Of a stretch of 24,772 nucleotides of DNA, positions 890 through 22,097 are shown piece by piece (position 1 is the stretch's first letter; every line of letters starts with the position of its first letter). The position numbers and the translations under genes were made by a program. Where the stretch lies: IMG/VR virus record IMGVR_UViG_3300009432_000036, positions 1 to 24,772 of that record. One strand, 5' to 3'. The notes under the pieces are model-generated. The model had not been told where the DNA came from. It saw only the letters and a list, made by a program, of their open reading frames with translations, and searched no databases. The DNA comes from a virus.

Positions 890-2068
890 ATGAAAAAAAT
901 AACAGTAGTAGGATCAGGATATGTAGGCATGGCAAATGCCGTAATGCTTTCTTCAATGCATGATGTAACTATCTTGGACATTGATGAGGCCAGAGTTGAT
1001 CTAATCAATAGAGGCAAGTCGCCCATAGTTGATTCTGAAATTGATGATTGGTTAAAAACTGACTTATATTTAAAAGCAACAACTGATAAGAAAGTAGCTT
1101 ACAATAATCCAGACTGGGTTATCATTGCCACACCAACCGATTATTGTCCAGAAACTAATTGCTTTGATACAGTTACCGTAGAAAAGTGTATAGCAGAGGC
1201 AATGTGGAACCATAAGGACTGGGATAACTCTAATACTCATATCGTTATTAAATCTACTATTCCTATCGGTTTCGTTGATTCACTGAAAAATGATAGGGTC
1301 CTGTTCTCTCCTGAATTCCTAAGAGAAGGCACTGCACTCAGAGATTGTCTACGTCCTGAAAGAATTGTAATTGGTAACACAGACCAAGAAGGTGTGGACT
1401 TTGCAGAATTAATGTATGATTCTATTATAGAGAATTTCCCTATGCCTCCTATCATTTACTGCGGCAATAGAGAAGCAGAATCAGTTAAACTATTTGCTAA
1501 TGGCTACCTTGCAATGAGAGTTGCATTCTTTAATGAGTTGGATACATTTTCAGAATTTCATGGCTTAGACACTAAGCAAATAATTGAGGGTATTACAGCA
1601 GATAGAAGAATAGGGAAAGGATACTGTAATCCTAGTTTCGGCTACGGTGGTTACTGTTTCCCTAAAGACACTAAACAGCTCTTGGCTAATTATAAAGACA
1701 ATAGAATCCCTAATAGAATTGTCGGTTCTATTGTAAGATCCAACGATGCCCGTATGGATTGGGTTGCAAATCAGATACTGCGCAAAAATCCAAATGTCGT
1801 GGGTATTTACCGACTAATTATGAAATCGGGTTCAGATAACTTTAGAAGTTCTGCGATCCAAGGTATTATTGATAGACTGACTCCACACTGTAAAGTGGTT
1901 ATTCATGAGCCAGAATATGAAGGAAGTGAATTTAATAATTGTATTATTGAAAATGATCTAAATAAATTTAAGAAACTGAGTGATGTAATTGTAACAAATA
2001 GAATGGAGAAGTGCTTAAATGAAGTTAAAGATAAGGTTTATACTAGAGATGTCTATGGAGATAATTAA
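890..2068 (+). CDS. ugd: UDP-glucose 6-dehydrogenase
   Basis: Oxidises UDP-glucose to UDP-glucuronate with two NAD+, in the cytoplasm. The 392-residue length is normal for the family. An N-terminal Rossmann fold shows GSGYVGMANA (8-17). The catalytic region has PEFLREG (141-147), K200 and N204 in VKLFANGYLAMR, and the active-site cysteine C256 in GYGGYCFPKD (251-260). These correspond in order to E, K, N and C of well-studied UDP-glucose dehydrogenases. A GDP-mannose dehydrogenase is the main alternative. The stop overlaps the start of the next sugar-nucleotide gene (TAATG), so the two are probably translated together. A likely job is supplying precursors for altering host surface polysaccharide or phage glycosylation, which is inference. 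Confidence 0.88.
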   Translation: MKKITVVGSGYVGMANAVMLSSMHDVTILDIDEARVDLINRGKSPIVDSEIDDWLKTDLYLKATTDKKVAYNNPDWVIIATPTDYCPETNCFDTVTVEKCIAEAMWNHKDWDNSNTHIVIKSTIPIGFVDSLKNDRVLFSPEFLREGTALRDCLRPERIVIGNTDQEGVDFAELMYDSIIENFPMPPIIYCGNREAESVKLFANGYLAMRVAFFNELDTFSEFHGLDTKQIIEGITADRRIGKGYCNPSFGYGGYCFPKDTKQLLANYKDNRIPNRIVGSIVRSNDARMDWVANQILRKNPNVVGIYRLIMKSGSDNFRSSAIQGIIDRLTPHCKVVIHEPEYEGSEFNNCIIENDLNKFKKLSDVIVTNRMEKCLNEVKDKVYTRDVYGDN

Positions 2069-2904
2069 TGAGTAAAATAATGGTAACAGGTGGAGCAGGT
2101 TTTGTCGGATCACATTTGGTCCACAAGCTCGTTGAGATGGGTCATGATGTAACAGTAATTGATAACTATTCTAATTACTCAGAGAATCCCGAGAATGAAA
2201 ATGCTCGTTACTTTGAAATGGATACAGATGAGTTAGAGTATCAATTTGAAAACGAGACGTTCAATTACATTTTTCACTTGGGTGAATACTCTAGGGTTGA
2301 ATCTTCCTTTCATGATTTTGATAAGGTTATGGCATATAACTATCACTCATTTCCCTCGGTGCTAGAGTTTGCTAAAAGATCAGGTGCAAAATTAATCTAT
2401 TCTGGTTCATCAACTAAGTTTGCTGATAATACACCTGCTGCAAGTCCTTATGCTTATACCAAAGCACAAAATACAGAACTATTAAAAAATTATGCAGAAT
2501 GGTACGGTTTAGATTATACTATCGTGTATTTTTATAATGTGTATGGTGATTACGAGAATGATGCTACTGTTGTCAAGAAGTTTTTAAACCTTGCTAAGAA
2601 AGGCATGAAGACACTACCAGTAACTTCACCCGGAACACAATACAGAAACTTTACTCACATTGATGATATTATCGAAGGACTAGTTAGGGCAGGATTTAAA
2701 GGTAGCGGCGATGGTTACGGCATTGGTTCTGATGAAAAGTGGACTGTCTTGGATCTAGTTAATATGCTAGGATGCGAACCAGAAATGATGCCAGAAAAGA
2801 AGGGCAATAGAATGGATGCTCAGTTGGTAACACACCAGGTCAAGGCCTTGGGCTGGAGAGCACAAAAGTCCTTGCCTAAATATATTTTATCACAACTAGG
2901 GTAA
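2068..2904 (+). CDS. NAD-dependent sugar epimerase/dehydratase (extended SDR)
   Basis: A short extended-SDR protein (278 residues). TGGAGFVG (7-14) is the NAD-binding TGxxGxxG motif. The catalytic set is visible as SGSS (112-115) and Y128-x-x-x-K132 in SPYAYTKAQ. The substrate is probably a UDP-sugar, by analogy with UDP-glucose 4-epimerase, UDP-glucuronate 4-epimerase or UDP-xylose synthase. Coupling to the upstream dehydrogenase favours UDP-glucuronate as substrate, but the sequence alone does not decide between epimerase and decarboxylase. It overlaps the previous gene by one base, with a good GGAG ribosome site at 2057-2060. It is somewhat shorter than typical enzymes of the family (about 310-340), mainly in the C-terminal substrate domain. 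Confidence 0.8.
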   Translation: MSKIMVTGGAGFVGSHLVHKLVEMGHDVTVIDNYSNYSENPENENARYFEMDTDELEYQFENETFNYIFHLGEYSRVESSFHDFDKVMAYNYHSFPSVLEFAKRSGAKLIYSGSSTKFADNTPAASPYAYTKAQNTELLKNYAEWYGLDYTIVYFYNVYGDYENDATVVKKFLNLAKKGMKTLPVTSPGTQYRNFTHIDDIIEGLVRAGFKGSGDGYGIGSDEKWTVLDLVNMLGCEPEMMPEKKGNRMDAQLVTHQVKALGWRAQKSLPKYILSQLG

Positions 2905-4960: not shown

Positions 4961-5221
4961 ATGCCAAAGATAGAATTAACACCAAGGACCAATAGAAATC
5001 CTAAAGATAAAAGACCACCAAGGGAAATGCCCTTTGAGATGGCTTTAAGAAAATTTAAAAAAGCAGTAGAAAGAGCTGGTACCTTACAAAAAGTCAGGGA
5101 GAAGGAATACTTTGAAAAACCTACGTGGAAGAAGAAACGTAAAAAAGCAGAAGCAGTTAATAGGTCGAAGAAGAAACAAGCTTCACTCTCGCCCGCTGCA
5201 CAACCGTGGAGAAAAAAATAA
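4961..5221 (+). CDS. rpsU: Ribosomal protein bS21 (phage-encoded)
   Basis: An 86-residue basic protein. Residues from about 24 to 70 (PFEMALRKFKKAVERAGTL, VREKEYFEKPTWKKKRKKA, NRSKKKQ) match bacterial bS21 along its length: the [PE]FE-x-ALR-x-FKR start, the KAG turn, the R-x-R-E-x-[FY]-[EY]-KP-[ST] stretch and the K/R-rich tail. It has a 20-residue N-terminal extension (MPKIELTPRTNRNP...) and a short C-terminal tail that cellular bS21 lacks. In cells bS21 sits near the anti-Shine-Dalgarno end of 16S rRNA and helps initiation. A phage copy could replace or add to the host protein and bias translation toward phage messages (inference). It is the first gene of the block leading into uvsX, whose start overlaps its stop. 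Confidence 0.9.
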   Translation: MPKIELTPRTNRNPKDKRPPREMPFEMALRKFKKAVERAGTLQKVREKEYFEKPTWKKKRKKAEAVNRSKKKQASLSPAAQPWRKK

Positions 5222-8161: not shown

Positions 8162-8818
8162 ATGTTTAAAGTGAATCTTATATCATATAGTCAACCACCT
8201 GCAGGTTCGGATCTAAATAGTGACCTCCTGCAGATGGTTGCATATTGTGCTCGGGTGTCAGCGCCCGGTAATCAAAATAATATTGCAACATCAGAGAAAC
8301 TAGTTAAATACCTAGTTAAGCATAAACATTGGTCTCCCTTGGAGATGGTATCAGTGTGTATGGAAATTGATACAACGAGAGATATTGCACGACAGATTCT
8401 GCGACATCGCTCCTTTACATTCCAAGAGTTTTCACAACGATATGCAGATCCAACTCTTGACCTCTCATTTGTAACACGTGAAGCTCGATTACAGGATCCT
8501 AAGAATAGACAGAACTCTGTTGAGAATGATGACAAAACATTACAGCAGATGTGGGATGTTTACCAAGGTGATGTAACCCTCGCTGCCAAACGAGCATATG
8601 ACTGGGCTATTGATAAGGGTATTGCCAAAGAGCAGGCAAGAGCCGTATTGCCTGAAGGTTTAACTATGTCTCGTATGTACGTAAATGGTACTCTACGGTC
8701 ATGGATCCACTATATGGATTTACGAAAGGCTAACGGTACTCAGAAGGAACATGCAGAGATCGCCCAGGCCTGTGCAGAGGTTATATTCAAGTTATTCCCA
8801 TTAGATACCAGTATATAA
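8162..8818 (+). CDS. thyX: Flavin-dependent thymidylate synthase
   Basis: Makes dTMP from dUMP using methylenetetrahydrofolate, NADPH and FAD. The ThyX signature RHR-x7-S is present as RHRSFTFQEFS (81-91), followed by QRYA. The substrate-binding part ARAVLPEGLTMSRMYVNGTLRSWIHYMDLR also fits, and HWSPLEMVSVCMEI is the usual FAD-site helix region. Its 218 residues are normal. T4 encodes the unrelated ThyA (td); use of ThyX is common in marine phages. With ribonucleotide reductase at the end of the window, it raises thymidine nucleotide supply for replication. It is the last gene before a strong terminator. Confidence 0.95.
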   Translation: MFKVNLISYSQPPAGSDLNSDLLQMVAYCARVSAPGNQNNIATSEKLVKYLVKHKHWSPLEMVSVCMEIDTTRDIARQILRHRSFTFQEFSQRYADPTLDLSFVTREARLQDPKNRQNSVENDDKTLQQMWDVYQGDVTLAAKRAYDWAIDKGIAKEQARAVLPEGLTMSRMYVNGTLRSWIHYMDLRKANGTQKEHAEIAQACAEVIFKLFPLDTSI

Positions 8819-11268: not shown

Positions 11269-11297
11269 TTTACAAATGTTATAAATATGACTATAAT
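11269..11297 (+). promoter_or_regulatory. Sigma70-type promoter, with embedded T4-late-like TATAAATA
   Basis: TTTACA (11269-11274), 17-base spacer, TATAAT (11292-11297). The spacer contains TATAAATA (11280-11287), identical to the T4 late-promoter -10. It lies at the head of the virion-type cluster, so both early and late use is possible. The downstream gene has AAGGGG at 11309-11314 and ATG at 11325. Confidence 0.65.
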
Positions 11298-11324: not shown

Positions 11325-12785
11325 ATGCGTGGATTTAAAACATTCTTGCCGGAAGATTTATCAAATTTAGAATACACCGGAAATGACAATGCATTTGCAT
11401 TAAAGGTTCTATCTGACATTGATGACGCAATTGGATCTATCAATACGGAAATTGAGATAGATGTAAGACCTAATAAACAAAGTGGAGCGAGACTAGGTAT
11501 AAGTCAAGCAATGCCAGAGAAACAAAGGGAGAAGTTTGCTGGCCTTGCTAAAGACATTATTGAAAAGACCGATGGTCTAACTCTCCGAATGGATAAAGTT
11601 CCCTCTGATCGTAAAGAGAAGGACTATGCATTCGAACACAGTGACATGAGTAAATATATTTATGTTAACTGCCGTCCCGATGGTGGACGTGGTGCACTCG
11701 GCGATGACCCCCATGAATTGATGACGGCTGCTCTATGCCTGAAAGCATTTCCTAAAGCACATACAATTGAAAATTCAGATCAGATGGATCAACTTCTTGA
11801 ATTGGTAAAAGGCCAACTAAAGAACGTAAGGGGATTCAAGCAATCCCAAGTTGATGCCATGGCAGATGATTATTCTAATTTATGTAAGGCAGTATCCGCG
11901 GCCAATGCTATTATAGCTGCTGGATACGGTGGGGCTGACACAGTTTACCTAACAGGTCAGGCATGGGATGATGATGTAAAAGAATTCCAAATGTCTCGTT
12001 ACGGTATGAACGACTTTAATTCTTCTGATTTTATTATCAAGAAAGGCAAGAACTACGTTGGAATCTCTTTAAAGAAAAAGAAAAGATCCACCGAAAGTGA
12101 TCCGACTTTAATTAATAAAGCATTCACTGGTCTACTTGCAGATAAAAAGTTTGATAAAATTAAGGCTCAGATTGACGATGACGCCGGTGCATTTTACCTT
12201 CATGTGATTAGAGTAGCTCAAAGATTACAAATACTATCACCTGAATTGCAAAAAGAATTGAAGAAGAGCAAACCAACCAGAAAGAATTGGAAAACATATA
12301 TTCAGAGAATACCTAATGACCTAGTCAATAGAGTACTCAAAGGAAAGCAAACACTGTTCCGCACAATGGCAAATACTATTGACAAGAATAGTGATCTAAT
12401 TGCCTCACAGCTTATACAATTAATTTTTAAATCAGACCTTAAAGAGTTAAAGAAAGTAAACTTTGACTTTGCTCTAGTTACTGGAATTGGTGACTATGGT
12501 CCTAAGAAAGGCGTAGTTGTAGAGAAGGGCGAATACAAAGATATTGACACGACAACCACAATGATTGATGAGCTATTTTCTTCTGGTAAACCTAGGATGA
12601 TACTCACTCCTGGTGCTAAGCAGGCATTCGATCCGGGTGCAAAGGCTGCCAGTCTTAAATTTACTTTGATGATCGGATCAGCTACTGTTGCAGATATAAC
12701 ACTAAGATACAAGGGCAACTTCCGAGCTGCTCCAAACTTTACTGCCGAGATGACTTCGGAGTTTAAGAAATTATTTAAAGCATGA
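11325..12785 (+). CDS. Large protein of unknown function with possible PD-(D/E)XK-like core and head-targeting-like N-terminus
   Basis: A 486-residue protein. The first residues MRGFKTFLPE resemble the leaders of its downstream neighbours, with a possible processing site after LPE10. The middle has FNSSDFIIKKGKNYVGISLK (231-250): an Asp235 on one strand and S-x-K (248-250) on the next, the shape of a PD-(D/E)XK nuclease core with Ser in place of Glu. KKKRSTESDPTLINKAF follows. The N-terminal part has HSDMSKYIYVNCRPDGGRG and DDPHELMTAALCLKAF, which I cannot assign. It looks like a marine-phage conserved protein with no firm name. It is the first gene of the virion-type cluster, and its stop overlaps the next start (ATGA). 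A nuclease role is only a hypothesis. Confidence 0.55.
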   Translation: MRGFKTFLPEDLSNLEYTGNDNAFALKVLSDIDDAIGSINTEIEIDVRPNKQSGARLGISQAMPEKQREKFAGLAKDIIEKTDGLTLRMDKVPSDRKEKDYAFEHSDMSKYIYVNCRPDGGRGALGDDPHELMTAALCLKAFPKAHTIENSDQMDQLLELVKGQLKNVRGFKQSQVDAMADDYSNLCKAVSAANAIIAAGYGGADTVYLTGQAWDDDVKEFQMSRYGMNDFNSSDFIIKKGKNYVGISLKKKKRSTESDPTLINKAFTGLLADKKFDKIKAQIDDDAGAFYLHVIRVAQRLQILSPELQKELKKSKPTRKNWKTYIQRIPNDLVNRVLKGKQTLFRTMANTIDKNSDLIASQLIQLIFKSDLKELKKVNFDFALVTGIGDYGPKKGVVVEKGEYKDIDTTTTMIDELFSSGKPRMILTPGAKQAFDPGAKAASLKFTLMIGSATVADITLRYKGNFRAAPNFTAEMTSEFKKLFKA

Positions 12786-13381
12786 AGGTATTAATTCTAG
12801 CCCCAGGCCGATGTGGTTCTTCTGTATTAGCCGATGCATTAAGTACAAGATATAATTTTAATGAGTATATAAGTGAACCATTTAATTATGATCTCGATAA
12901 TAGTCAGCACGACTTTGATCATAATAATGTGAAGGATAACACCTTAGTTAAATGCATAGTGAACCAATGGCATTTACCTAAAGGCACACCAAATAGTGTA
13001 ACAGGTTGCATTGAGTTTTTTGAAGAGTTTACCAAGCAATTTGATAAAGTGTTCCTATTGAAAAGAGAATCTAACTCACAGAGATTGTTCTCAGTATTAC
13101 ATGCACACCAGACTGGGTTGTGGGGGAAATACGATAGACAAGATATAGTACTAGATGATCCAAAACATGATGTTTTCATAGAAGATTACATAAAAACCGA
13201 AATAATTATGTTTACTTTGGTTACTAAATATGATATAATAACATATGAAAACTTGTACAACAAAGACGTATCTGTATCAAGATCAGAATGGATCAAGATT
13301 GTAGAAAAAGAACCAAAGTGGACATTTAATGAGTATTACAATACTTGGTTTAATCCAAAGAATAGGAAAAAGAAATGTTAA
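12782..13381 (+). CDS. Sulfotransferase-like P-loop protein
   Basis: A 199-residue protein. The N-terminus KVLILAPGRCGSSVLADALS (2-21) matches the 5'-phosphosulfate-binding loop of PAPS-dependent sulfotransferases (PRSGS[ST]). It is followed by the expected helix and by YISEPFNYD, a common second stretch (EPF). VFLLKRESNSQRLFSVLHAHQTG corresponds to the 3'-phosphate-binding region (R-x-N-x-x-x-x-x-S-x-x). The acceptor cannot be told; a surface sugar or a phage protein is plausible. It is unusual in this cluster because it lacks the head-targeting-like leader of its neighbours. It overlaps both neighbours by a few bases. Confidence 0.72.
   Translation: MKVLILAPGRCGSSVLADALSTRYNFNEYISEPFNYDLDNSQHDFDHNNVKDNTLVKCIVNQWHLPKGTPNSVTGCIEFFEEFTKQFDKVFLLKRESNSQRLFSVLHAHQTGLWGKYDRQDIVLDDPKHDVFIEDYIKTEIIMFTLVTKYDIITYENLYNKDVSVSRSEWIKIVEKEPKWTFNEYYNTWFNPKNRKKKC
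13211..13239 (+). promoter_or_regulatory. Internal sigma70-type promoter
   Basis: TTTACT (13211-13216), 17-base spacer, TATAAT (13234-13239) with extended -10 TGA and AACATATGA downstream, matching the intergenic copies closely. It lies inside the sulfotransferase gene, about 135 bases before the ATG at 13375, and would allow separate expression of the downstream genes. Confidence 0.5.
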
Positions 13382-14619
13382 AGTTTAAAAATCACACACC
13401 ATTAAACGAAGCGGCCAAGAATACTCACATGACGCATATCGAAGATTTAATTCTTGATGGTGGAGTTAAGGGGGCACGCCAAGCAATACTCGCATTACGG
13501 TCACTGCGAGATATGCTTTCCGGTAACACTAAATCTGCAGTAGATGTTACGGTTAAATGGGATGGTGCCCCCGCCGTCTTTGCTGGTATTGATCCTGGTG
13601 ACGGCCAGTTCTTTGTTGCCAAGAAAGGAATATTTAATGCTAACCCTAAGGTATATAAGTCACACGAGGACATCGATGCAGATACGTCTGGCGATCTATC
13701 TAAGAAACTTAAAGTTGCCTTTGATGAGTTATCTAAATTAGGAATCACTAATGTTATTCAGGGTGATTTCATGTTTGATCAAGGTGATTTAAAGAGTGAA
13801 ACTATTGACGGTCAGAAGATGACTGTGTTTCACCCTAACACAATTGCATATGCCGTACCAAAAGGAACACCATTAGAAAAAGAAATCAGTTCTGCCAAGA
13901 TCGGTATTGTATGGCATACAAGTTATTCCGGTGCTACATTTGAAACAATGAAGGCAGAGTTTGCTAGAGAGATTGTTCCCAAGTTAAAGAAATCCAAGAC
14001 TGTTTGGATGCAAGATGCTACTCTGCCAGATTTATCCGGTACTGTAACACTTACTGCTTCTGAGACAGAAGAACTTAATAAGAACCTATCTAGTGCTGGT
14101 AAGATATTCAAGACCATTGCATCATCTACACTAAAGGAACTTGAAAATAATAAAGAACTGAATCTTATTATCAATGTCTATAACAATAGAAAGGTTCGTG
14201 ACGGCCAAAGAGTTGCAGATACAAAGAAACATGCTACTGGTTTAATCATGTTTGTGAATGATAGATATGCAAAGGAGATTGACAAGCGCTCATCACAGAA
14301 GGGTAAAGATGTACAGATTAAGAAAAGAGACGAATTATTAAAGTTTTTTGATAAATCTAATCTTAAAAACTTACAATTAATCTTTGAATTACAGAATTTT
14401 GTTATAAATAGTAAATTAATTATTATAAATAAACTAAACAAACTAAGTAATATTGGTACGTTTGTTAAGACTAAATCCGGATTTAAGGTAACCAACCCAG
14501 AAGGTTTTGTTGCCATAGATCGAATGGAAGGTGGTGCTGTTAAACTTGTTGATAGAATGGAATTTTCTACTAACAACTTTAGCAAAGATATTATAAAAGG
14601 TTGGGATAATCCTAACTGA
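13375..14619 (+). CDS. Ligase-superfamily-like nucleotidyltransferase with head-targeting-like leader
   Basis: A 414-residue protein. The leader MLKFKNHTPLNE ends in LNE12 before AA, a good match to the T4 head-protease cleavage rule. VTVKWDGAPAVFAG (58-71) carries K61-x-D-G64, the lysine motif I of DNA/RNA ligases and capping enzymes. NVIQGDFMFD (126-135) fits motif III, PEGFVAIDR (375-383) fits motif IV, and AVKLVD (388-393) fits motif V with the second Lys missing. I recall this as a conserved marine T4-like phage family (DUF6267-like) without known function. The motifs suggest a covalent AMP- or GMP-lysine chemistry. It is different from the true DNA ligase at 9760. It could be a repair ligase packaged in the capsid, or an inactive structural relative. 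Confidence 0.65.
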   Translation: MLKFKNHTPLNEAAKNTHMTHIEDLILDGGVKGARQAILALRSLRDMLSGNTKSAVDVTVKWDGAPAVFAGIDPGDGQFFVAKKGIFNANPKVYKSHEDIDADTSGDLSKKLKVAFDELSKLGITNVIQGDFMFDQGDLKSETIDGQKMTVFHPNTIAYAVPKGTPLEKEISSAKIGIVWHTSYSGATFETMKAEFAREIVPKLKKSKTVWMQDATLPDLSGTVTLTASETEELNKNLSSAGKIFKTIASSTLKELENNKELNLIINVYNNRKVRDGQRVADTKKHATGLIMFVNDRYAKEIDKRSSQKGKDVQIKKRDELLKFFDKSNLKNLQLIFELQNFVINSKLIIINKLNKLSNIGTFVKTKSGFKVTNPEGFVAIDRMEGGAVKLVDRMEFSTNNFSKDIIKGWDNPN

Positions 14620-14646
14620 TTAATGGGTAACCAAGGATAATAAATT

Positions 14647-15000
14647 ATGTTAACGTTTCAACAATGGGCTGAAGCAGCTTCTGCAAAGACCAGAATGAAG
14701 ATGAAAATCGCCATGAAGAAAAACAAGGCGAAGATTGCCATTGGTCGCAAAAAGGCTGCTAAGAAATTAGCCTCACCCGAAAAACTCAAATCAAAAGCAG
14801 AAAAGCAAGCAAGGGGTCTTATGTTAAAGAAGATCCTCAAAGATCGTGACAAGTCCGATTTATCATTCTCTGCCCGTCAAGGCGTCGAAAAGCAACTAGA
14901 CAAGAAGAAAGGTGCAATTAAGAAACTTGCTAAGAAGTTGTTACCCAAAGTGAAGGCACAAGATAGAGCCAAATTAAAAAATAACAGTGGTGAAGAATAA
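14647..15000 (+). CDS. Lys-rich putative internal head protein
   Basis: A 117-residue protein with 31 Lys and 6 Arg, about a third of all residues. The N-terminus MLTFQQWAE before AA is very like the T4 internal-protein leader MKTYQEFIAE, with a predicted cleavage after E9. The rest is helical and basic (RMKMKIAMKKNKAKIAIGR, KKAAKKLASPEKLKSKAEK) with a mid-protein RDKSDLSFSARQGVEKQLDK. It resembles a conserved protein of marine T4-like phages. The charge suggests binding packaged DNA inside the head, as for the basic internal proteins of T4. It ends directly at the start of the next gene. Confidence 0.7.
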   Translation: MLTFQQWAEAASAKTRMKMKIAMKKNKAKIAIGRKKAAKKLASPEKLKSKAEKQARGLMLKKILKDRDKSDLSFSARQGVEKQLDKKKGAIKKLAKKLLPKVKAQDRAKLKNNSGEE

Positions 15001-16182
15001 ATGATTAAGAGTTTTGGAGAATATGTTACCGAAGAAAAAGGTGACGTTACCATTGTATTCGGTAGATTTAATCCACCTACGAGCGGCCACGAGAAATTAT
15101 TTGATACACTAAAGAAAGTATCAAGAAGTGGTGTGTATAGAATATATGCATCTAAGTCTCAAGACGCAAAGAAGAATCCACTCGACTTTAAAAATAAAGT
15201 AAAATTCCTAAGAAAGATGTTTCCTAAACATGCTCGTAACATCATGGCAGATCCTGATATTCGGACTGTTATAGATGTAGCACGGAAAGTATACGACCAA
15301 GGGTTTACCAGACTAACCATGGTTGCTGGTTCAGATAGAGTTAAAGAGTTTGAAATTCTATTAAACAAATATAACGGAGTTGAGGCCAGACACGGCTTCT
15401 ATCAATTCGAAGGTTCAATTAAAGTAATCTCTGCAGGTGAAAGAGATCCAGACAGTGATGAAGTATCAGGAATGTCTGCATCCAAATTACGAGCCGCTGC
15501 AGCAGATAATGATCTAAAATTATTTTCTAAGGGAATGCCAAGCAGCTATAAAGACTCTATGGCACTATTTAATGCAGTTAGAATGGGTATGGGTTTAAAA
15601 GAATCCAAGTCGTTCAGAACACATGTTGAATTACCTAAAGTATCCAATACAAGAGAGGATTATGTAGAGGGTAAACTGTATAAGGTAGGAGATCAAGTAG
15701 AGATTAAAGAAAGTGGTAAGATAGGTACAATTATTAATTGTGGAGCAAACTACCTTACACTATCATTATCAGAAGGTAATAAGACTAAGGTTTGGCTTGA
15801 TGCAGTTGCAACTGTTGCAGAAAAGACATACAGCGATATGAATGCTAAACAGAAAGCTGCCCATGATAAACCAAGAACTGACATGCCAAAAAGCAAACAC
15901 ACTAAGAAATTCAAAAAGAAATTCGGCGAAATGAAGAGTTTCACTGAACAATCACTAGAAGAAGCTGATGTCAAATCTGCTCTTCAGAAAAAAGCTGATA
16001 AGTCCGGAATGCCTTATTCTATTTTAAAGAAGGTATTTGATAGAGGGTTTGAGGCATGGAAGTCATCTCACCGACCAGGCACAAATCCCACTCAATGGGG
16101 ACTAGCTAGAGTCAATTCATTTGCAACCAAATCTCCCGGAACCTGGGGTAAAGCCGATAAAGACCTAGCGGCCAAAGTATAA
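15001..16182 (+). CDS. HxGH nucleotidyltransferase fused to a C-terminal domain, with N-terminal and internal head-targeting-like leaders
   Basis: A 393-residue, three-part protein. The leader MIKSFGEYVTE has a candidate cut after E11. A nucleotidyltransferase domain (15-195) shows FGRFNPPTSGHEKL with TSGH at 27-30 and GMSASKLR (157-164), equivalent to the ISASxxR motif. A KOW/SH3-like segment (about 226-270: KVGDQVEIKESGKIGTIIN) follows, then a Lys-rich linker. At 311 comes MKSFTEQSLEEA, itself a leader-like sequence with a cut site after E321. The last 70 residues (SALQKKADKSGMPYSILKKV, RGFEAWKSSHRPGTNPTQWG, ARVNSF) form a DUF5824-like domain I recall from marine and jumbo phages. The internal ATG at 15931 could also be a second start, but no good ribosome site precedes it. 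Confidence 0.75.
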   Translation: MIKSFGEYVTEEKGDVTIVFGRFNPPTSGHEKLFDTLKKVSRSGVYRIYASKSQDAKKNPLDFKNKVKFLRKMFPKHARNIMADPDIRTVIDVARKVYDQGFTRLTMVAGSDRVKEFEILLNKYNGVEARHGFYQFEGSIKVISAGERDPDSDEVSGMSASKLRAAAADNDLKLFSKGMPSSYKDSMALFNAVRMGMGLKESKSFRTHVELPKVSNTREDYVEGKLYKVGDQVEIKESGKIGTIINCGANYLTLSLSEGNKTKVWLDAVATVAEKTYSDMNAKQKAAHDKPRTDMPKSKHTKKFKKKFGEMKSFTEQSLEEADVKSALQKKADKSGMPYSILKKVFDRGFEAWKSSHRPGTNPTQWGLARVNSFATKSPGTWGKADKDLAAKV

Positions 16183-16197
16183 TAGGAAAATACAAAA

Positions 16198-16968
16198 ATG
16201 TTAAAATTTAAAGAATTAAGAATGAAGTCTGAACCGGTTGCAGAAGCAGCTGATCCTAACGTAGCAAAGGCCGTTCAAGGTTTAAATGATCTTGGTAATA
16301 AAATGAAAGGCCGAGATCAGAAAGACATAAGACGTATCGAAAAGCTATATAGATCTGGTAATAGTAAAGTATTTCAAGGTGCTATAAGAGCATTAGACAC
16401 TGACCTTAGAGATCAGGTTAAGGATATTTTTGATGCGCTAGGTATGGTTAAGAAAGGTGTTATTGAATCAGTTGAACTTGACGAAGGGTTTTCACCTAAA
16501 GAGATTAAAATGGCCATCGGAGTTGCATCAGATAAGCGTTATGCAGGTGGTAATATGTCTGGTGCAGTTAAAGCAATTGAAAAGATTAAAAAGGGTTTGT
16601 CTGATCACCCACAAGTTTCAGCAGTTCTAAAGAGACAGAACGAAGAGCTCGAAGAGTCAACTGCGGCATATGCTGCTTCACTTAACAAGATGGCTAAAGA
16701 TAAAGCACTAAAGCAACTATCTAAGAAAGATAGAGAGACCATTGCTAAATTGGCCGCTATGATGCAGTCTGCTAACGAGGCAGTATTAGAAGGTATGGAT
16801 AACTGGAGTGTTACTGTTGTTAAGCCAGTCAATAAGCTAAAGAAGGGAGATGAAGTAACTATCAAAGCTCGTAGCGCATTCGAGGCAATCAACAAAGCTA
16901 TTAAGTCTTGGAAAGATCCTGCACTGAAAGGCGCACCATCTTCTCACTTCAAGATCGTTAAAGTATAA
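16198..16968 (+). CDS. Multi-segment putative internal head protein
   Basis: A 256-residue protein with leader MLKFKELRMKSEPVAE (cut after E16, then AA). Three further [LIV]-x-E sites fall between what look like separate small domains: LDE96 before GFSPKEIKMAIG, LEE153 before STAAYAAS, and VLE198 before GMDNWSV. The segment 97-150 (EIKMAIGVASDKRYAGGNMS, AIEKIKKGLSDHPQVSAVLK) and the segment 154-198 (AAYAASLNKMAKDKALKQLS) resemble modules recalled from marine T4-like phages. If the head protease cuts these sites, one gene yields four or five capsid peptides. No enzymatic motif is seen. The stop overlaps the next start (TAATG). Confidence 0.6.
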   Translation: MLKFKELRMKSEPVAEAADPNVAKAVQGLNDLGNKMKGRDQKDIRRIEKLYRSGNSKVFQGAIRALDTDLRDQVKDIFDALGMVKKGVIESVELDEGFSPKEIKMAIGVASDKRYAGGNMSGAVKAIEKIKKGLSDHPQVSAVLKRQNEELEESTAAYAASLNKMAKDKALKQLSKKDRETIAKLAAMMQSANEAVLEGMDNWSVTVVKPVNKLKKGDEVTIKARSAFEAINKAIKSWKDPALKGAPSSHFKIVKV

Positions 16969-17213
16969 TGAAAGACTTTACTGAATATAGATTGCAATCA
17001 ACTCTGGATGAAGCACCTTTAGTAATGAAGGACGCTGATATGGTTGATGCACTATTTAAAAAAATCAAAGATGATATTTATGCTAATGCTAGAAAAGATC
17101 GGGATGAGAAAAACTGGCCGACTATTCAGACTCTTGCAAAACTAGCAGGATTCGGTGTTAGTAAAAACAATCAAACTAAGGGTAAATCATACAGGTACGA
17201 TTTGAAAAAATGA
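16968..17213 (+). CDS. Small putative internal head protein
   Basis: An 81-residue protein with leader MKDFTEYRLQSTLDE (cut after E15, then AP). The rest (VMKDADMVDALFKKIKDDIY..., DEKNWPTIQTLAKLAGFGVS) is charged and mostly helical, ending in KGKSYRYDLKK, a basic tail. No family is recognised. It overlaps both neighbours by 1-4 bases, as expected within the cluster. Confidence 0.6.
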   Translation: MKDFTEYRLQSTLDEAPLVMKDADMVDALFKKIKDDIYANARKDRDEKNWPTIQTLAKLAGFGVSKNNQTKGKSYRYDLKK

Positions 17214-17887
17214 TAAGCTTTAAAGAGGTAAGAGAAGGTGTTACTATAATGGAAGGTGTAAATGATCCTTCCATTTTTAAAGCAATCTTTCTCGCTGGCG
17301 GGCCAGGTGCCGGCAAGTCCTTTGTTGTAGGTAAGACTGCTCTACAAGCATTAGGATTTAAATTAATTAATTCAGATGATGCTTTTGAAAAGGGATTAAA
17401 AAAAGCAGGACTTACTACTGATCCAGATGACATTGCATCAGCACAGGCTCAAGACATAAGAGCAAAGGCAAAAGCTATTACTGGTAAGAAACTGCAGCTT
17501 GCTCTTCAAGGTAGAATGGGCATTGTCATTGACGGAACTGGCAAGAATTATCCCAAGATAAAAGGCCAGGTTGAATCATTAAGAAAACTTGGTTATGCAG
17601 TACAAATGATATTTGTGAACACTAATATAGAAACTGCTTTAGCTAGAAATGCAGAAAGGGATAGATCATTACCCGATTCCCTAGTTACAAAAATGTGGAA
17701 AGATGTACAACAGAATCTTGGTAAATTTCAAGGTTTGTTCCGTAACCGTATGATTATTGTTGATAACTCTAACGAATCAGATATAGACCAAGCAACATTA
17801 GAAGCATATAGAGATATCCAAAAGTGGGCAGCTAAGCCGCCAGAGAATTCCATTGCAGTAAAGTGGATAAAGGGCCAGAGAAAATGA
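17210..17887 (+). CDS. P-loop kinase (zeta-toxin-like) with head-targeting-like leader
   Basis: A 225-residue protein. Leader MISFKEVREGVTIME with a candidate cut after E15 (IME before G). IFLAGGPGAGKSFVVGK (26-42) is a Walker A box at 30-37, followed by LINSDDAFEKGLKKAGL (52-68), typical of small kinases and zeta-toxin-like ATPases. IVIDGTGKNYPKIKGQVESL holds the Walker B-like Asp, and ALARNAERDRSLP is a lid arginine region. The substrate may be a nucleotide, a polynucleotide end or a small metabolite; T4 Pnk-type repair is one possibility. Alternatives are a toxin-like kinase. It overlaps both neighbours by four bases (ATGA). Confidence 0.72.
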   Translation: MISFKEVREGVTIMEGVNDPSIFKAIFLAGGPGAGKSFVVGKTALQALGFKLINSDDAFEKGLKKAGLTTDPDDIASAQAQDIRAKAKAITGKKLQLALQGRMGIVIDGTGKNYPKIKGQVESLRKLGYAVQMIFVNTNIETALARNAERDRSLPDSLVTKMWKDVQQNLGKFQGLFRNRMIIVDNSNESDIDQATLEAYRDIQKWAAKPPENSIAVKWIKGQRK

Positions 17888-18258
17888 AAACATTTAAGAA
17901 TCACTTAGAGGGCTTTGGCCTATATGAGGGAGTTACCGTTCCTCTTGAATCTCCTATGATTGAGATTACAGAGGAACGGGAACCCGAACTCAATAAACCA
18001 AAGCGCTCAAGCGGCAAGAAGAAATATGTTGTTTACGTTAATAATCCTAAGACAGGTAATGTAAAGAAGATAGAGTTTGGTGACGAAAAGGGTGGTCTCA
18101 CAAGTAAAATTAATGATCCAGCGGCAGCTAAGTCATTTGCGGCGAGACATAATTGTGATACTAAAACAGATAAATTATCAGCAGGATACTGGGCATGCCG
18201 TCTGCCTAAGTATGCAAAAGCATTGGGGTTGAAAGGTGGTGGATCTTACTTTTGGTAA
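17884..18258 (+). CDS. Putative internal head/virion protein with conserved basic domain
   Basis: A 124-residue protein starting at ATG 17884 (ATGA overlap); an upstream in-frame ATG at 17863 lies inside the kinase gene. The leader MKTFKNHLEGFGLYE, with a cut after E15 before GV, is the closest here to the T4 form MKTYQEF. An acidic linker follows, then a compact domain from about 46: KKYVVYVNNPKTGNVKKIEF, SKINDPAAAKSFAARHNCD, DKLSAGYWACRLPKYAKALG. C91 and C105 may pair or bind metal. I recall this domain (DUF5872-like) in marine T4-like phages, where its role is not known. Its end overlaps the next gene by 23 bases. Confidence 0.65.
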   Translation: MKTFKNHLEGFGLYEGVTVPLESPMIEITEEREPELNKPKRSSGKKKYVVYVNNPKTGNVKKIEFGDEKGGLTSKINDPAAAKSFAARHNCDTKTDKLSAGYWACRLPKYAKALGLKGGGSYFW

Positions 18259-18511
18259 ACCGTATACAGTAGATACGGCAGGTAATGTTAGGACGTTTGA
18301 TCCGAATTTGGATGACGCTGAGTTCGTTTGGCACCGAGACAAGGAAGATCGGGAAATAGAAATACTAGAAGGTGATGGATGGCAGTTTCAGATAGATAAA
18401 TGTCTACCATGGCTTCTTACAAAGGGTATGGTATTTGACATAAGCAAATACGAATACCATAGACTAATACGGGGTGTTACTCCACTTAAATGCAAGGTTA
18501 TACTAAAATGA
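18236..18511 (+). CDS. Small cupin-like conserved phage protein
   Basis: A 91-residue protein starting at GTG 18236 (GTG 18239 is equally possible), overlapping the previous gene. FVWHRDKEDREIEILEGDGWQFQIDKCLP... and KGMVFDISKYEYHRLIRG form the alternating strand pattern of a cupin-type barrel: a WHRD near the first metal-site position and YHRL near the second. This type is frequent in marine phages without a known activity. There is no leader of the head-targeting type. Its stop overlaps the next start (ATGA). Confidence 0.6.
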   Translation: MVDLTFGKPYTVDTAGNVRTFDPNLDDAEFVWHRDKEDREIEILEGDGWQFQIDKCLPWLLTKGMVFDISKYEYHRLIRGVTPLKCKVILK

Positions 18512-18807
18512 CGACAGCTAACGACTACCGGCAGGATGCTGCAGCTAGGATGGAACGGATTGAAGATAAGATTGATCAAATGTCTGATGCCATTATAGCT
18601 CTGGCTAGAGCAGAAGAGAAAATTACTACTTTAACATCTTTTGGTAAGCAGCAGGCGGAACAAACTTTAACTCTTATAAATAGAGTTGATAGAATAGAAA
18701 ACTTGGTTGTGCAGAATGCTACAACCGTAAACATAATTAATAAAATATTCTGGGTAGTCATAACAGCCATGGTGGCTGGGGTTACAGGAATGCTATTTTT
18801 ACAATAG
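18508..18807 (+). CDS. Coiled-coil protein with C-terminal membrane helix
   Basis: A 99-residue protein starting at ATG 18508 (ATGA overlap); an in-frame ATG at 18490 would add six residues. The N-terminal 70 residues are a heptad-like helix (AARMERIEDKIDQMSDAI, LINRVDRIENLV). A C-terminal membrane segment (IINKIFWVVITAMVAGVTGMLFL, about 75-98) follows. The shape resembles XhlA-type proteins that sit with holins in Bacillus phages, and other tail-anchored phage proteins. A lysis or membrane-attachment role is possible, but the lysis-type genes lie 2 kb downstream. Confidence 0.6.
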   Translation: MTTANDYRQDAAARMERIEDKIDQMSDAIIALARAEEKITTLTSFGKQQAEQTLTLINRVDRIENLVVQNATTVNIINKIFWVVITAMVAGVTGMLFLQ

Positions 18808-18816
18808 GAGATAAAG

Positions 18817-19350
18817 ATGGAAATCCAAGATTTGGAAACACTGAGCATTGCTGCAGCAGTAAGTAATGTACTTGAAGGTAAAGTAAAAGAGGAAGAAGCA
18901 AGTTATCCTCACAAAATGTATGATCCCGAAACTGGTAAAGCAGTAACGGTTAAGGATGAAGCAGAACATGAGAAGTATAACAAGATGGGTTATGTTCATG
19001 ATAAGCCTAATCTTGAATCAGATGATGAGCCAGAGAAAGATGATGAGGAAGTAACTACTTCTGAAGCAGTCGTTGGTACTGGTGAGAAAGAATTTAAGGC
19101 TAAACATAAAGTCAAGAAATCTGGCAAATTGGGTAATGATGAAACTATCACCAAGGAAACTAAAGATGACGAAGAAGATGAAGAAGAAGTTGATGAAGCT
19201 TCAGAGAAGCAAAAGAAATATCAAGCATTCTTCCAGAAAGCATTAAAGAAATTTGGTGCTAAATCTCCTTCTGAACTTGATAAGGAAAAGCGCAAAGAAT
19301 TCTTTAATTATGTTGATAAGAACTATCAGGCAGATTCAGAGGAAGATTAA
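18817..19350 (+). CDS. Acidic multi-domain putative head core protein
   Basis: A 177-residue acidic protein. Its first part MEIQDLETLSIAAAVSNVLE ends in VLE20 before GK, a candidate head-protease site although the leader differs from its neighbours. A small domain at 29-64 (SYPHKMYDPETGKAVTVKDE, HEKYNKMGYVHDK) is followed by a long Asp/Glu linker, VDE127 before AS (second candidate site), and a C-terminal domain (KYQAFFQKALKKFGAKSPSE, KEFFNYVDKNYQ). The acidic, segmental layout is like prohead core (scaffold) proteins that are cut up during maturation. It has a strong ribosome site, TAGGAGAT (18805-18812). Confidence 0.6.
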   Translation: MEIQDLETLSIAAAVSNVLEGKVKEEEASYPHKMYDPETGKAVTVKDEAEHEKYNKMGYVHDKPNLESDDEPEKDDEEVTTSEAVVGTGEKEFKAKHKVKKSGKLGNDETITKETKDDEEDEEEVDEASEKQKKYQAFFQKALKKFGAKSPSELDKEKRKEFFNYVDKNYQADSEED

Positions 19351-19362
19351 TCAAGTAACCAC

Positions 19363-19386
19363 TATCCTTTGAAGGGTATATATAAT
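19363..19386 (+). other. Small hairpin followed by a lone TATAAT
   Basis: TATCC (19363-19367) can pair with GGGTA (19374-19378) around a 6-base loop, followed by TATAAT (19381-19386) just before the ATG at 19389. No -35 box is present, so neither a terminator nor a promoter is established. It marks the only non-coding gap (38 bases) in this part of the cluster. Confidence 0.25.
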
Positions 19387-19388
19387 AT

Positions 19389-19760
19389 ATGATGAAAATA
19401 TTTGACCAGTTGACGCATAGAAACTTTAAATTATATGCTGCACACTTTTATAACAATCCAGAATGCACGGATGTTGAAGAGTTCAAGGAAGATGTAAGTA
19501 GGTTTAAATACATAAAGCGCTTGCTGAGTCGCTATGAAGCACATAGTGATTTACAGGAGCGCTTAATATTAAACCATTTAATTGTATTATATAATGTCTT
19601 TGGTATTGAAGCAGCAAATAGAATGCTGTGGTTTAAAATAGACGAAAATCAGTGGACGTATATTAAACCGTTCCTAGTGTTTTTGAACTATTTGCCGATA
19701 GATGAAAAAGTAGAGGTTCCGCTGGATCCTCAAATAATAGAGAGGTTGAGAAGTCTATAA
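19389..19760 (+). CDS. Conserved hypothetical protein
   Basis: A 123-residue, helix-rich protein (MMKIFDQLTHRNFKLYAAHFY..., RFKYIKRLLSRYEAHSDLQE, ILNHLIVLYNVFGIEAANRM). ATG 19392 is an alternative start. It is very like a protein that I recall as widely conserved in T4-like marine phages, placed near head and tail genes, with no assigned role. There is no leader or membrane segment. Its stop overlaps the next start (TAATG), and the two probably act together. Confidence 0.6.
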   Translation: MMKIFDQLTHRNFKLYAAHFYNNPECTDVEEFKEDVSRFKYIKRLLSRYEAHSDLQERLILNHLIVLYNVFGIEAANRMLWFKIDENQWTYIKPFLVFLNYLPIDEKVEVPLDPQIIERLRSL

Positions 19761-20341
19761 TGGGATTGATTTCACGCACAGGTGATTTATTTTACGCATT
19801 TAGGTTCCTAAGAACCCTCACTAAGCCGTGGGATCAAATGGAAGCATTTGACTTAGGTATCATTGATGCAGACGGAAAGGTCATTAAGAAAGCAAAGGAC
19901 CTAAGTACTCCAGAAGAAAAATCTGCATATACAGTATTCCATAGACTAGTATTTAATATTAAGCGACTACTGAATAAACTACCATTTGGTAAATCTAAGT
20001 TGGCATCTTATGCGGCCGCTCTGTTTCTAATTAAAGAAAACACAGGGTTAACCGAAGATGAAATCAGAAAGGTTATGTCAGAAGTATTGGATGACATAGA
20101 ATCCCTAGAAGAAGCTACATGGTTCCAAGAAGATAGTAAACTAAAACCAGGCAAGTATAAACTCACTCAGGAAGTTGCGTCACCTGCTACAGGCGAGATA
20201 GTTGCATTCCCTAAAGATCTCATCGAAGTTAAAGAGTTTCTTGAACCACAGGCAAGGTTATTTAATCAAAATATCTATGAGGTAACCCACTGCAAGACTG
20301 GATTAAAGTTATACATAACTAATGGAGAAATAAAAAGATGA
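19760..20341 (+). CDS. Conserved hypothetical virion-cluster protein with internal protease-like site
   Basis: A 193-residue protein in two parts. Residues 1-95 (GLISRTGDLFYAFRFLRTLT, DAFxLGIID-type stretch, HRLVFNIKRLLNKLPFGKSK, SYAAALFLIKENTG) form a conserved helical domain I recall from marine T4-like phages, without function. SLEE118 before ATWFQ is a candidate head-protease cut. Residues 126-193 (KLKPGKYKLTQEVASPATGE, EVTHCKTGLKLYITNGEIKR) form a small beta domain. The two-part layout with a cut site between parts matches other genes in this cluster. It overlaps its neighbours by one and four bases. Confidence 0.6.
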   Translation: MGLISRTGDLFYAFRFLRTLTKPWDQMEAFDLGIIDADGKVIKKAKDLSTPEEKSAYTVFHRLVFNIKRLLNKLPFGKSKLASYAAALFLIKENTGLTEDEIRKVMSEVLDDIESLEEATWFQEDSKLKPGKYKLTQEVASPATGEIVAFPKDLIEVKEFLEPQARLFNQNIYEVTHCKTGLKLYITNGEIKR

Positions 20342-20538
20342 AGCACTTTAAGGATGTATGGGAAGATGCGGCGAATGCTACAGGTGCTGCGGTTTCGATG
20401 CCTGCCGATGTTTCACATGCCAAGAAGTTAAAACAAAAGAAAATGTATGATGGCAGAACCAAAGAAGGCAGAAAGTTCGTAGAAAGAATTTTAGCTAGAA
20501 GGGCAGCAAAGGTACAAGAATCTAAAACAGAAGGTTAA
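20338..20538 (+). CDS. Small basic putative head protein
   Basis: A 66-residue basic protein. The leader MKHFKDVWE before DAAN resembles the targeting leaders upstream (cut after E9 possible). The body (HAKKLKQKKMYDGRTKEGRK, KFVERILARRAAKVQESK) contains the DGRT-[KR]-x-G-[RK]-KFVERI stretch that I recall from marine T4-like phages. It is probably a DNA-binding or structural peptide in the capsid, by analogy only. It overlaps the previous gene by 4 bases. Confidence 0.6.
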   Translation: MKHFKDVWEDAANATGAAVSMPADVSHAKKLKQKKMYDGRTKEGRKFVERILARRAAKVQESKTEG

Positions 20539-20541
20539 ATC

Positions 20542-20910
20542 ATGTCTAAAATATTGATTGGTATTATTGTCGTTATGGGTTTAGGAGGTTGGTTCCTCTA
20601 TAATAAGAATTTAGAATTGATTCAACTCAATACGGCATTTGAAGTAAGAGATGCGGAACAGCAGGCAGCAATCGTTGCCATTCAGGAATCCATGGAGACT
20701 ACACAAAAAGCTCTCTCTGGTCTACAAACCAAAAATCAAATGTATGAAGCAGAAATGTCAGAGTATTTAGATATATTCAGACGGCACAATATGTCTAAGT
20801 TAGCTAGTGCCAAACCTGGCCTCATTGAATCTCGTGTTAATAAAGCAACAAAGGAGGTATTCGATGCTATTGAAGAATCTAGCACTCGCATTAGCAATCT
20901 TAACAATTAG
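20542..20910 (+). CDS. Inner-membrane spanin subunit (Rz-like)
   Basis: A 122-residue protein with an N-terminal membrane helix (ILIGIIVVMGLGGWFLY, 4-20) followed by a periplasmic coiled coil (about 35-75). A C-terminal region RHNMSKLASAKPGLIESRVNKA is typical of Rz-like subunits in marine phages. Its last 47 bases overlap the start of the following lipoprotein in another frame, the hallmark of overlapping spanin pairs. It is thought to span the periplasm with the lipoprotein and fuse inner and outer membranes at the last step of lysis. The pairing is inferred from topology and overlap. Confidence 0.8.
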   Translation: MSKILIGIIVVMGLGGWFLYNKNLELIQLNTAFEVRDAEQQAAIVAIQESMETTQKALSGLQTKNQMYEAEMSEYLDIFRRHNMSKLASAKPGLIESRVNKATKEVFDAIEESSTRISNLNN

Positions 20911-21343
20911 TGGTTGTTCATTACTAGGTGGCCCTAGAGAAGTACAAATAATTACTAAACCAATTAAGATTGATATAGTACAACCTGTATTGCCCAGACC
21001 AATAAATTTAAAAGAGCCTAAATGGTATGTGGTATCAGACACCAAGATCATAGAGAATTGCTTAAAGAACGAAGAAGGCGTAACAGACTGTAAACTAGGC
21101 AGAGAGGATTTATACCCAGACGGATATACCCACTTTGATAAGTTTATAGATAGTATTAAGAAGAAACACGGCGGCGACTTAGTGTTCGTTGCTATGACGG
21201 TTGATGATTATGAGCTTATGGCTTATAATACTCAAGAAATTAAACGGTATATAAATCAGCTTGGTGAAGTTATTGTGTACTATCGTGATGTAACGATAGG
21301 CGATAAGGATGCGGCAGCAGTTGAAATAAAAGTGGATAAGTAA
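20864..21343 (+). CDS. Outer-membrane lipoprotein (spanin partner, Rz1-like, enlarged)
   Basis: A 159-residue lipoprotein starting at ATG 20864 behind a near-perfect AAGGAGGT (20851-20858). An in-frame upstream ATG at 20807 lacks this. The signal peptide MLLKNLALALAILTISGC has lipobox I-S-G-C18, and Ser at +2 favours the outer membrane. A Pro-rich stretch (about 25-50: KPIKIDIVQPVLPRPINLKE) is typical of o-spanins. A folded extension of about 100 residues follows (DLYPDGYTHFDKF..., GGDLVFVAMTVDDYELMAYN), which is longer than classic Rz1 (about 40 mature residues). The overlap with the gene before it is 47 bases. Confidence 0.78.
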   Translation: MLLKNLALALAILTISGCSLLGGPREVQIITKPIKIDIVQPVLPRPINLKEPKWYVVSDTKIIENCLKNEEGVTDCKLGREDLYPDGYTHFDKFIDSIKKKHGGDLVFVAMTVDDYELMAYNTQEIKRYINQLGEVIVYYRDVTIGDKDAAAVEIKVDK

Positions 21344-21344
21344 A

Positions 21345-22097
21345 ATGGCTAAAACAAAAGCAAGAGACCTAAGTAAATCCGATAGAGCACTAATTGCTGC
21401 TAAACTATCGGCACTAGCATATAAATCAGATGTTCAGGCAGAAGCCAAGTCCATGGGTTTCACCAAAGCAGAGATTATCAGCAAAGATGGAGCAGAAGTA
21501 TTAGTTGTAAGAAATAAGACTGATATGTGGTTTGCATTTAGGGGAACAGAACCCTCTAAGCTAAATGATGTTATGGCTGATTTAAAGGTCTTTAAGAATG
21601 CTGCTATGGCCGGCGGCAAAGTCCACGGTGGTTTCCAACAAGAACTAGATGATATTTGGCCGGAGATTGTTAAAGAGTTATCACACAACGAGAAAGCAAA
21701 AACAAGTAAAGATGTGTATTTTACTGGACATAGTCTGGGTGCTGCCATGGCAACCATTTCGGCTACAAGGTATTGTCCTCAGGAATTACTTACCTTTGGG
21801 TCACCCAGAGTCGGCGGAAATAAATTCATTAAAAATATAAAATGTACACACTACAGATTTATGAATAATAATGACATTGTATGTAGATTACCACCTGCTT
21901 GGTTGGGCTTTAGGCATCACGGAGATATGATTTACTTTGATTGTGATGGCAATAGAGCAGTCGGGCCTTCTTGGAGAGATTTCTTTAAAGGTGTTTTGCA
22001 GTCATGGAAGCGATGGAAGTTCTTTGATGCAGTTGTTGATCACGGCATGCCCAACTATGTAGCAGCAATTAATAATCAAGCAGAAGGAGAGAAATAA
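21345..22097 (+). CDS. Class 3 lipase-like alpha/beta hydrolase
   Basis: A 250-residue hydrolase of the Lipase_3 family. WFAFRGTEP (62-70) is the oxyanion strand and FTGHSLGAAMATI (126-138) gives the nucleophile S130. FGSPRVGGNKF (151-161), RFMNNNDIVCRLPP (Asp177) and DHGMPNYVAAI (His233) complete a plausible Ser-Asp-His triad, with HHGDM (191-195) near. There is no signal peptide, so release would need lysis or a holin. It sits directly after the spanins and before another small membrane protein, suggesting a lysis role or attack on host lipids. It starts one base after the lipoprotein stop and is a rare gene type in T4-like phages. Confidence 0.82.
   Translation: MAKTKARDLSKSDRALIAAKLSALAYKSDVQAEAKSMGFTKAEIISKDGAEVLVVRNKTDMWFAFRGTEPSKLNDVMADLKVFKNAAMAGGKVHGGFQQELDDIWPEIVKELSHNEKAKTSKDVYFTGHSLGAAMATISATRYCPQELLTFGSPRVGGNKFIKNIKCTHYRFMNNNDIVCRLPPAWLGFRHHGDMIYFDCDGNRAVGPSWRDFFKGVLQSWKRWKFFDAVVDHGMPNYVAAINNQAEGEK

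Follow-up and report, generated by a model that had tools for sequence, protein, structure and literature searches.

An array of diverse genes with T4-type capsid-targeting-like leaders in a T4-like marine phage

IMG/VR virus record IMGVR_UViG_3300009432_000036 (24,772 nucleotides; the whole stretch analyzed is called the window) stems from a T4-like marine phage, of which it is a 24.8-kb fragment. It contains, between a gene of ligase type (9760; genes are named by their first position in the window) and nrdA (22465), an array of genes whose products have short, similar N-terminal leaders. A first-pass annotation, made from the sequence alone, had listed about ten such genes and compared their leaders to the capsid-targeting sequence (CTS) of T4 internal proteins (IPs). 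The open reading frames (ORFs) that it named were confirmed at their coordinates, and nine of the listed genes were retained as leader genes (Table 1). Gene 11325, listed there only as a "perhaps," proved to be among the best leaders and has the exact T4-type register; in general, the leaders have an aromatic residue at about position 4, an aromatic residue or His at about position 7, and [LIVP]-x-Glu ending before a small residue. Gene 18817, listed for its VLE/GK motif, was dropped: it has no aromatic leader, its leader score is -3.9, its product has an isoelectric point (pI) of 4.8, and its family reads MKINDKETLSIAAAVSDVLEGK. For the DUF6267 protein (13375) and the cytidylyltransferase (15001), the nearest named relatives were those of phage C48C1 and Methylophilales phage Melnitz, with Pelagibacter phage HTVC008M among the next; all three are classified in the Kyanoviridae.

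Table 1. Features of the array in the window (a slash marks the predicted cut)
Position	Strand	Feature	Leader (position)	Basis
11280..11287	+	TATAAATA, similar to the -10 box of T4 late promoters; intergenic, 37 bp before the start of 11325		weak
11325..12785	+	Leader protein, phrog_3060	MRGFKTFLPE/D (11325-11354), exact T4 register	ORF, PHROG, family, leader score
13375..14619	+	Leader protein, DUF6267 (phrog_455)	MLKFKNHTPLNE/AA (13375-13410)	Pfam, family
14647..15000	+	Leader protein, small, very basic (pI 10.7 after leader)	MLTFQQWAE/AA (14647-14673)	family
15001..16182	+	Leader protein, cytidylyltransferase/NMNAT-like	MIKSFGEYVTE/E (15001-15033)	Pfam, family, virion-detected orthologues
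16198..16968	+	Leader protein of no known family	MLKFKELRMKSEPVAE/AA (16198-16245)	family, leader score
16968..17213	+	Leader protein, small, basic	MKDFTEYRLQSTLDE/AP (16968-17012)	family, leader score
17210..17887	+	Leader protein, P-loop kinase (AAA_33/Zeta_toxin-like)	MISFKEVREGVTIME/GV (17210-17254)	Pfam, family, leader score
17884..18258	+	Leader protein, phrog_7595	MKTFKNHLEGFGLYE/GV (17884-17928); alternative cut HLE/G	PHROG, family, leader score
18817..19350	+	Acidic protein inside the array, not a CTS-type leader protein		family, leader score, pI
20338..20538	+	Leader protein, 66 aa, basic	MKHFKDVWE/DAA (20338-20364)	family, capsid-arm comparison

The nine leader proteins belong to different Pfam or PHROG families and blastp clusters, so that the leader is the sole part that they have in common. 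Besides the families given in Table 1, the Pfam and PHROG assignments placed a DUF5824 domain in 15001; 14647, 16198, 16968, and 20338 received no assignment, and a Pfam search with 20 further leader or cluster proteins returned no family beyond the cut-off.

To score the leaders, 80 IMG/VR contigs were retrieved with the 13375 protein as the query, their ORFs were clustered into families with start codons assigned mechanically, and a position matrix was built in which each gene's own family was left out of training. With this matrix, the nine leader genes scored from +0.8 to +15.9, and all other window genes scored 0.01 or less. Leader genes made up 9 of the 14 genes within positions 11325 to 20541, compared to 0 of 23 in the rest of the window (Fisher P = 1.6e-5). 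Across the 80 contigs, a score above 4 was reached by approximately 40 to 76% of genes lying 1 to 5 kb downstream of the 13375 orthologue, compared to 1.5% of internal Met positions and 1.2% of shuffled N-termini, and the leader was carried by 55 of the 324 families near DUF6267 (23 of these with at least three members). The claim of a leader array was thereby borne out. That an A-rich translation-start context, or chance, accounts for the shared N-termini is hardly credible: starts of the type MK-S/T-F-K-E are indeed A/T-rich, as is the phage, yet the two control rates are low, the same leader residues occur in the higher-GC phage S-CREM2, and they are not found in the other genes of the same genome. 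Moreover, position 4 is Phe in 82 of 100 unique exact-register marine leaders, and the codons vary synonymously both for Phe4 and for Glu10 (GAA in some leaders, GAG in others); such variation around a constant residue indicates selection at the protein level.

Among orthologues, the leader was variable yet recognizable and directly preceded the conserved domain. Orthologues of 13375 began with MKGFKNQLAE/AAGKNTHM or MKSLTGYLSE/AAGK, and the DUF6267 proteins of more distant, Melnitz-like contigs began with MLNFSGFLAE/DKGG or MINFSSFLTE/DKGG. The corresponding leaders in relatives read MEFKSFSEYLTE/AKGEVYFVFGRFNPP for the 15001 family, MDNFKEHFDLMEGVNDPSIFKAVFLAGGPGSGKS for 17210, MHSFLEHIEERFGLYEG for 17884, MKSFKDIWEDAAANS for 20338, and MIRFKNSFMTEELSAL for 11325. 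The C48C1 counterparts of 14647 and 17884 start with MLSFKQFVSE/V and MKKFKQYIDE/G, respectively; the C-terminal part of 16198 also occurs in proteins tagged MKTFKEIREA/, and the slot upstream of DUF6267, filled here by 11325, is occupied by differing leader proteins in relatives. In the complete C48C1 genome, the six top-scoring of 205 ORFs all lie at 61.8 to 71.8 kb, which is the syntenic cluster. For the C48C1 cytidylyltransferase, the annotated start is an internal Met and lies too far downstream; an in-frame upstream GTG (L002 13515; OQ984149 63514) gives VIKNFSQYLLE/EEREVYFTFGRMNPP, cut before E.

The register agrees with what is known of the T4 CTS. The first ten residues of T4 IPIII direct the protein to the head, with residues 4 and 7 serving in targeting and residues 8 and 10 in processing (PMC9026906); the marine leaders match at these four positions. 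Of the 100 exact-register leaders, 82 have Phe and 17 have Leu at position 4, 90 have Tyr, Phe, or His at position 7, and 95 have Leu or Ile at position 8, although the pattern itself restricts these choices. With the matrix trained on marine leaders alone, the five highest-scoring of 151 T4 genes were, in order, 61.1, IPI, 57B, IPIII, and IPII. The N-terminus of T4 IPI (MKTFKEFTSTTTPVSTITE/A), with its early aromatic pair and later [LI]xE, parallels the longer window leaders. The window array and T4 IPI, IPII, and IPIII (MKTYQEFIAE; IPI, MKTFKEFTSTTTPVSTITE) have several features in common: the leader register, with aromatic residues at positions 4 and 7; a leader that ends in [LI]-x-E and occurs in a short and a long form; basic proteins with no other relationship to one another; and phages that possess gp21, gp22, and gp23. 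They differ in that T4 has three such genes in two loci, whereas the window has nine in one array, with other cargo families that include enzyme-like proteins, and in that the window leaders often have Phe4 and His or Tyr at position 7. T4 Alt (MELITELFDE/D) and the ejection proteins of the giant phage SPN3US are likewise large or enzymatic, undergo processing by the prohead protease, and leave the head together with the DNA, but they have other leader sequences.

Virion proteomics of relatives provided a further line of evidence. The published virion list of cyanophage S-CREM2 contains several nonstructural proteins (PMC10665884), the N-termini of which include MKDFDSFLEE (S-adenosylmethionine [SAM] hydrolase), MKDLHSFLTE, VKRFDAFLTE (APH kinase), MQTFSMFFSE, and MKNFSSFLTE (cytidylyltransferase); in a Cas9-like virion protein, the leader is internal (LRFASFMAE/AA at residues 17 to 25). 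In S-CREM2, 5 of 6 exact-register proteins were detected in the virion, compared to 23 of 180 other noncanonical proteins (P = 3e-4). Orthologues of 15001 with T4-type leaders are found in the published virions of three cyanophages, namely, S-CREM2, S-SZBM1 (S-SZBM1_140, MRFRQFIIE/A, virion detected), and S-SCSM1 (S-SCSM1_91, MKSFLQFLKE/AA, labeled a virion protein), and a cytidylyltransferase is also present in S-SM1 virions (PMC3037559). Around the NMNAT gene of S-SCSM1 (86.3 to 93.4 kb), seven genes are labeled virion or tail-fiber virion proteins. Virion-associated cytidylyltransferase/NMNAT has been published, with no CTS explanation (PMC9602691, PMC10665884); the window shares its leader type with these cyanophage proteins, including the S-CREM2 SAM hydrolase, APH kinase, and Cas9-like protein, and 15001 is orthologous to the cytidylyltransferases. 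They differ in having been published with no targeting leader recognized and in coming from phages of cyanobacteria; among the nearest relatives of the window are phages of methylotrophs and of SAR11.

The leader proteins are also strongly basic: their median pI is 9.7, whereas the products of the remaining genes in the window have a median of 5.45 (P = 3e-5). With the leader removed, those of the window have a pI of 9.0 to 10.7, and at the family level, with the first 12 residues removed, the values were 9.5 versus 6.4 (P = 1e-7). The T4 internal proteins have likewise been reported to be basic. The genes for gp21 protease, scaffold, and capsid, which lie outside the window fragment, are present in C48C1, Melnitz, and HTVC008M, and window-like contigs have a capsid gene with the maturation site ISE/AA or MTE/AA; at the level of motifs, LNE/AA, WAE/AA, and VAE/AA of the window share P1, P1', and P2' with the capsid site ISE/AA. 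This match bears on the possibility that the tag docks proteins to another phage structure, such as the replisome, the membrane, or the nucleoid, and is unrelated to the capsid. The array adjoins replication genes outside the head module, and DUF6267 orthologues lacking the tag exist (S-SZBM1_141). However, the residues of the leader cut site equal those of the capsid protein's own site, the leader matrix recovers T4 IPs and virion-detected S-CREM2 proteins, and in the S-SZBM1 virion the tagged S-SZBM1_140 was detected and the untagged S-SZBM1_141 was not. We therefore consider docking elsewhere very unlikely.

The leader protein 20338 is one of a family of small proteins that are rich in Lys and encoded beside a DUF7207 gene, and in its relatives the leader is followed by a segment resembling the N-arm of the mature major capsid protein. 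The capsid gene of the window phage lies outside the fragment, and the resemblance was judged through relatives. It was significant for G013, Melnitz, HTVC008M, G017, T4, and S-CREM2 (with weaker scores for the first three) and not significant for C48C1 (P = 0.20) or G001 (P = 0.10). The product of T4 gene 61.1 scored 69 against gp23 (next best T4 protein, 37); virion-detected S-CREM2 ORF160 scored 95 against its own capsid protein (next, 45), and the virion protein S-SCSM1_97 gave a strong score of 83 against its own (next after the capsid protein itself, 42). Neither ORF160 nor S-SCSM1_97 has an exact-register leader of its own. T4 gene 61.1 (NC_000866 18966-19130, 54 aa) encodes a CTS-like leader, MKTFKEFIKE, and then a near copy of the mature gp23 N-arm (NISIGTTSGAVVNKGP versus NIAAGQTSGAVTQIGP); a literature search found no function for it. 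Like 20338, it has the leader, then the arm-like segment, and then a Lys-rich tail, but its resemblance to the capsid arm is far stronger than can be demonstrated for the window, whose capsid gene is outside the fragment. Tentatively, and with slightly less than even confidence, we suggest that T4-like phages keep, besides a large cargo of enzymes and basic proteins that is exchanged rapidly, one small CTS-tagged or virion-bound protein (20338, T4 61.1, S-CREM2 ORF160, and S-SCSM1_97) that copies the mature N-arm of its own capsid protein, covaries with it, and may dock on the inner capsid surface or compete for the partner of the arm to organize or retain cargo.

Most probably, the genes of the array code for proteins that a T4-like marine phage packages inside its capsid as internal proteins. 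Leader proteins would be synthesized late; the N-terminal tag would dock each nascent protein in the scaffold core of the prohead; prohead protease gp21 would cut after Glu; the mature proteins, which are basic, would remain beside the DNA inside the head; and some or all of the set would be ejected into the host along with the DNA, to act ahead of phage transcription. This chain from packaging to ejection draws on what is known of T4 and on virion proteomics of related phages. Packaging of the set is likely; we infer cleavage in this phage, injection, the packaging of the eight proteins besides 15001, and any role in host takeover or counterdefense. The phage would in that case probably carry a ready-made protein kit into the infected cell. 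Capsid targeting of a diverse set, as the first-pass annotation had it, is well supported by the leader statistics, the T4 cross-validation, the virion proteomics of three relatives, the basic character, and the gp21/capsid site match. Alternatively, the tagged proteins might enter the prohead and serve there as core, scaffold, or head morphogenesis factors, with no injection for host action. T4 IPIII does function in head assembly (PMC9026906), and the capsid arm likeness of 20338 and its analogues points to a head-internal role for that protein. However, 15001 and 17210 have enzyme folds of no obvious use in assembly, slot families differ strongly among close phages, as accessory cargo does, and T4 Ip1 to Ip3 act in the host, each blocking different type IV restriction enzymes (PMC12373910). 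A purely head-internal role for the set thus appears unlikely. Since the T4 proteins block these enzymes, some members of the set may plausibly serve in counterdefense, with which the SAM hydrolase in the S-CREM2 virion is consistent; nucleotidylyltransferase, P-loop kinase, and DUF6267 sequences suggest nucleotide, NAD, or nucleic acid chemistry and would be in keeping with repair of NAD or nucleic acids at time zero.

Several observations weigh against capsid packaging of the array. Taken alone, the leaders of 14647, 16198, 16968, and 20338 are weak and are supported through their families, and HTVC008M-like DUF6267 proteins have lost the aromatic part of the leader (MELLNE/DKNTHLEH). The exact-register pattern was drawn up once some sequences had been seen; because patterns were partly refined in this way, the leave-family-out, T4, C48C1, and proteomics tests were adopted. 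Outside S-CREM2, the genome-wide association with virions is weak (1 of 2 exact-register ORFs detected in S-SCSM1 and 1 of 3 exact or 9-mer ORFs in S-SZBM1; P = 3e-4 for the three phages combined). Many virion-detected nonstructural proteins have no leader, and the leader is consequently not the sole route; copurified protein may also be counted among the virion detections, a caveat given by the authors of the proteome studies. Finally, the virion data cover cyanophages rather than the window phage or its nearest relatives, and a mature N-terminus has been seen nowhere.

The DUF6267 protein (13375) has the invariant motifs VKWDGAPA, QGD, EGxVA, and VKLVDR (EGxVA..VKLVD) with a helical insert, which look like motifs I, III, IV, and V of covalent nucleotidyltransferases. 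Assignment as a covalent nucleotidyltransferase or RNA ligase, suggested at motif level, was nevertheless rejected for lack of further support, as hhalign with T4 RnlB gave a probability of 0.2 and no PDB match was obtained by sequence or Foldseek. The AlphaFold model of the protein has a mean confidence (pLDDT) of 74, and the predicted model of 11325 is poor (pTM, 0.40). The late-promoter-like TATAAATA motif has 7 matches in the window versus 3 expected, slightly over chance. The flanks of the array (window positions 890-2904, 4961-5221, 8162-8818, and 20542-22097) hold UDP-glucose dehydrogenase and epimerase-like genes, ribosomal protein bS21, a ThyX-like gene, an Rz-like spanin pair, and a class 3 lipase.

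Other N-termini in the relatives were also observed. A possible second head-targeting N-terminus, M-x(3-8)-[MLI]-x-[EK]-[AV]-[YL]-like (MTRYTKTMAEAYREV, MSDINKIMEAYLGMV), occurs in virion-detected S-SCSM1_89 and S-SCSM1_92 and in cluster proteins of C48C1, Melnitz, and HTVC008M (L268 1239-2210 and 4943-6505; L002 18835-19599; L003 17131-18519; L004 19430-20548). The virion protein S-SCSM1_93 (L268 6508-6717) has a leader-like motif, RTFKEFLEYIE, at its C-terminus. Exact-register leaders are conserved on small genes (MK867354 44215-44535; OL473597 122311-122628 and 122628-123125, minus strand), reading MKTFKQFMSE/SVNISGDFNGNLY, MKSFKSFLSE/SVNISGDFNGNLY, and MKTFKQYITE/AKNCPPG. The small leader gene of S-SCSM1 lies directly upstream of the terminase gene and has no virion label; for those of S-SZBM1, the published virion list has no entry of matching length.

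The first-pass annotation had called the set a previously undescribed injected toolkit, which holds in part. The tag and injected IPs were known from T4, at least 10 Ips have reportedly been identified in T-even phages by their CTS signal (PMC12373910), and virion NMNAT had been reported (PMC9602691, PMC10665884). In the literature searched, a CTS tag was unreported for cyanophages or other marine phages; "capsid targeting" with "cyanophage" matched a review on T4 head assembly. What is new here is the breadth, with a far larger number of cargo families, some of them enzymes, gathered in a conserved array, together with a small capsid-arm-like protein. The tag offers an explanation for the puzzling enzymes of cyanophage virions (NMNAT, SAM hydrolase, kinase, and Cas9-like protein). 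If the proposed packaging is correct, the T4 capsid-targeting tag would be in general use for marking cargo among T4-like marine phages, which are some of the most abundant viruses of the ocean; injected proteins would be predictable from sequence alone; and tens of unknown families would become candidate proteins for host takeover or counterdefense in the first minute of infection.

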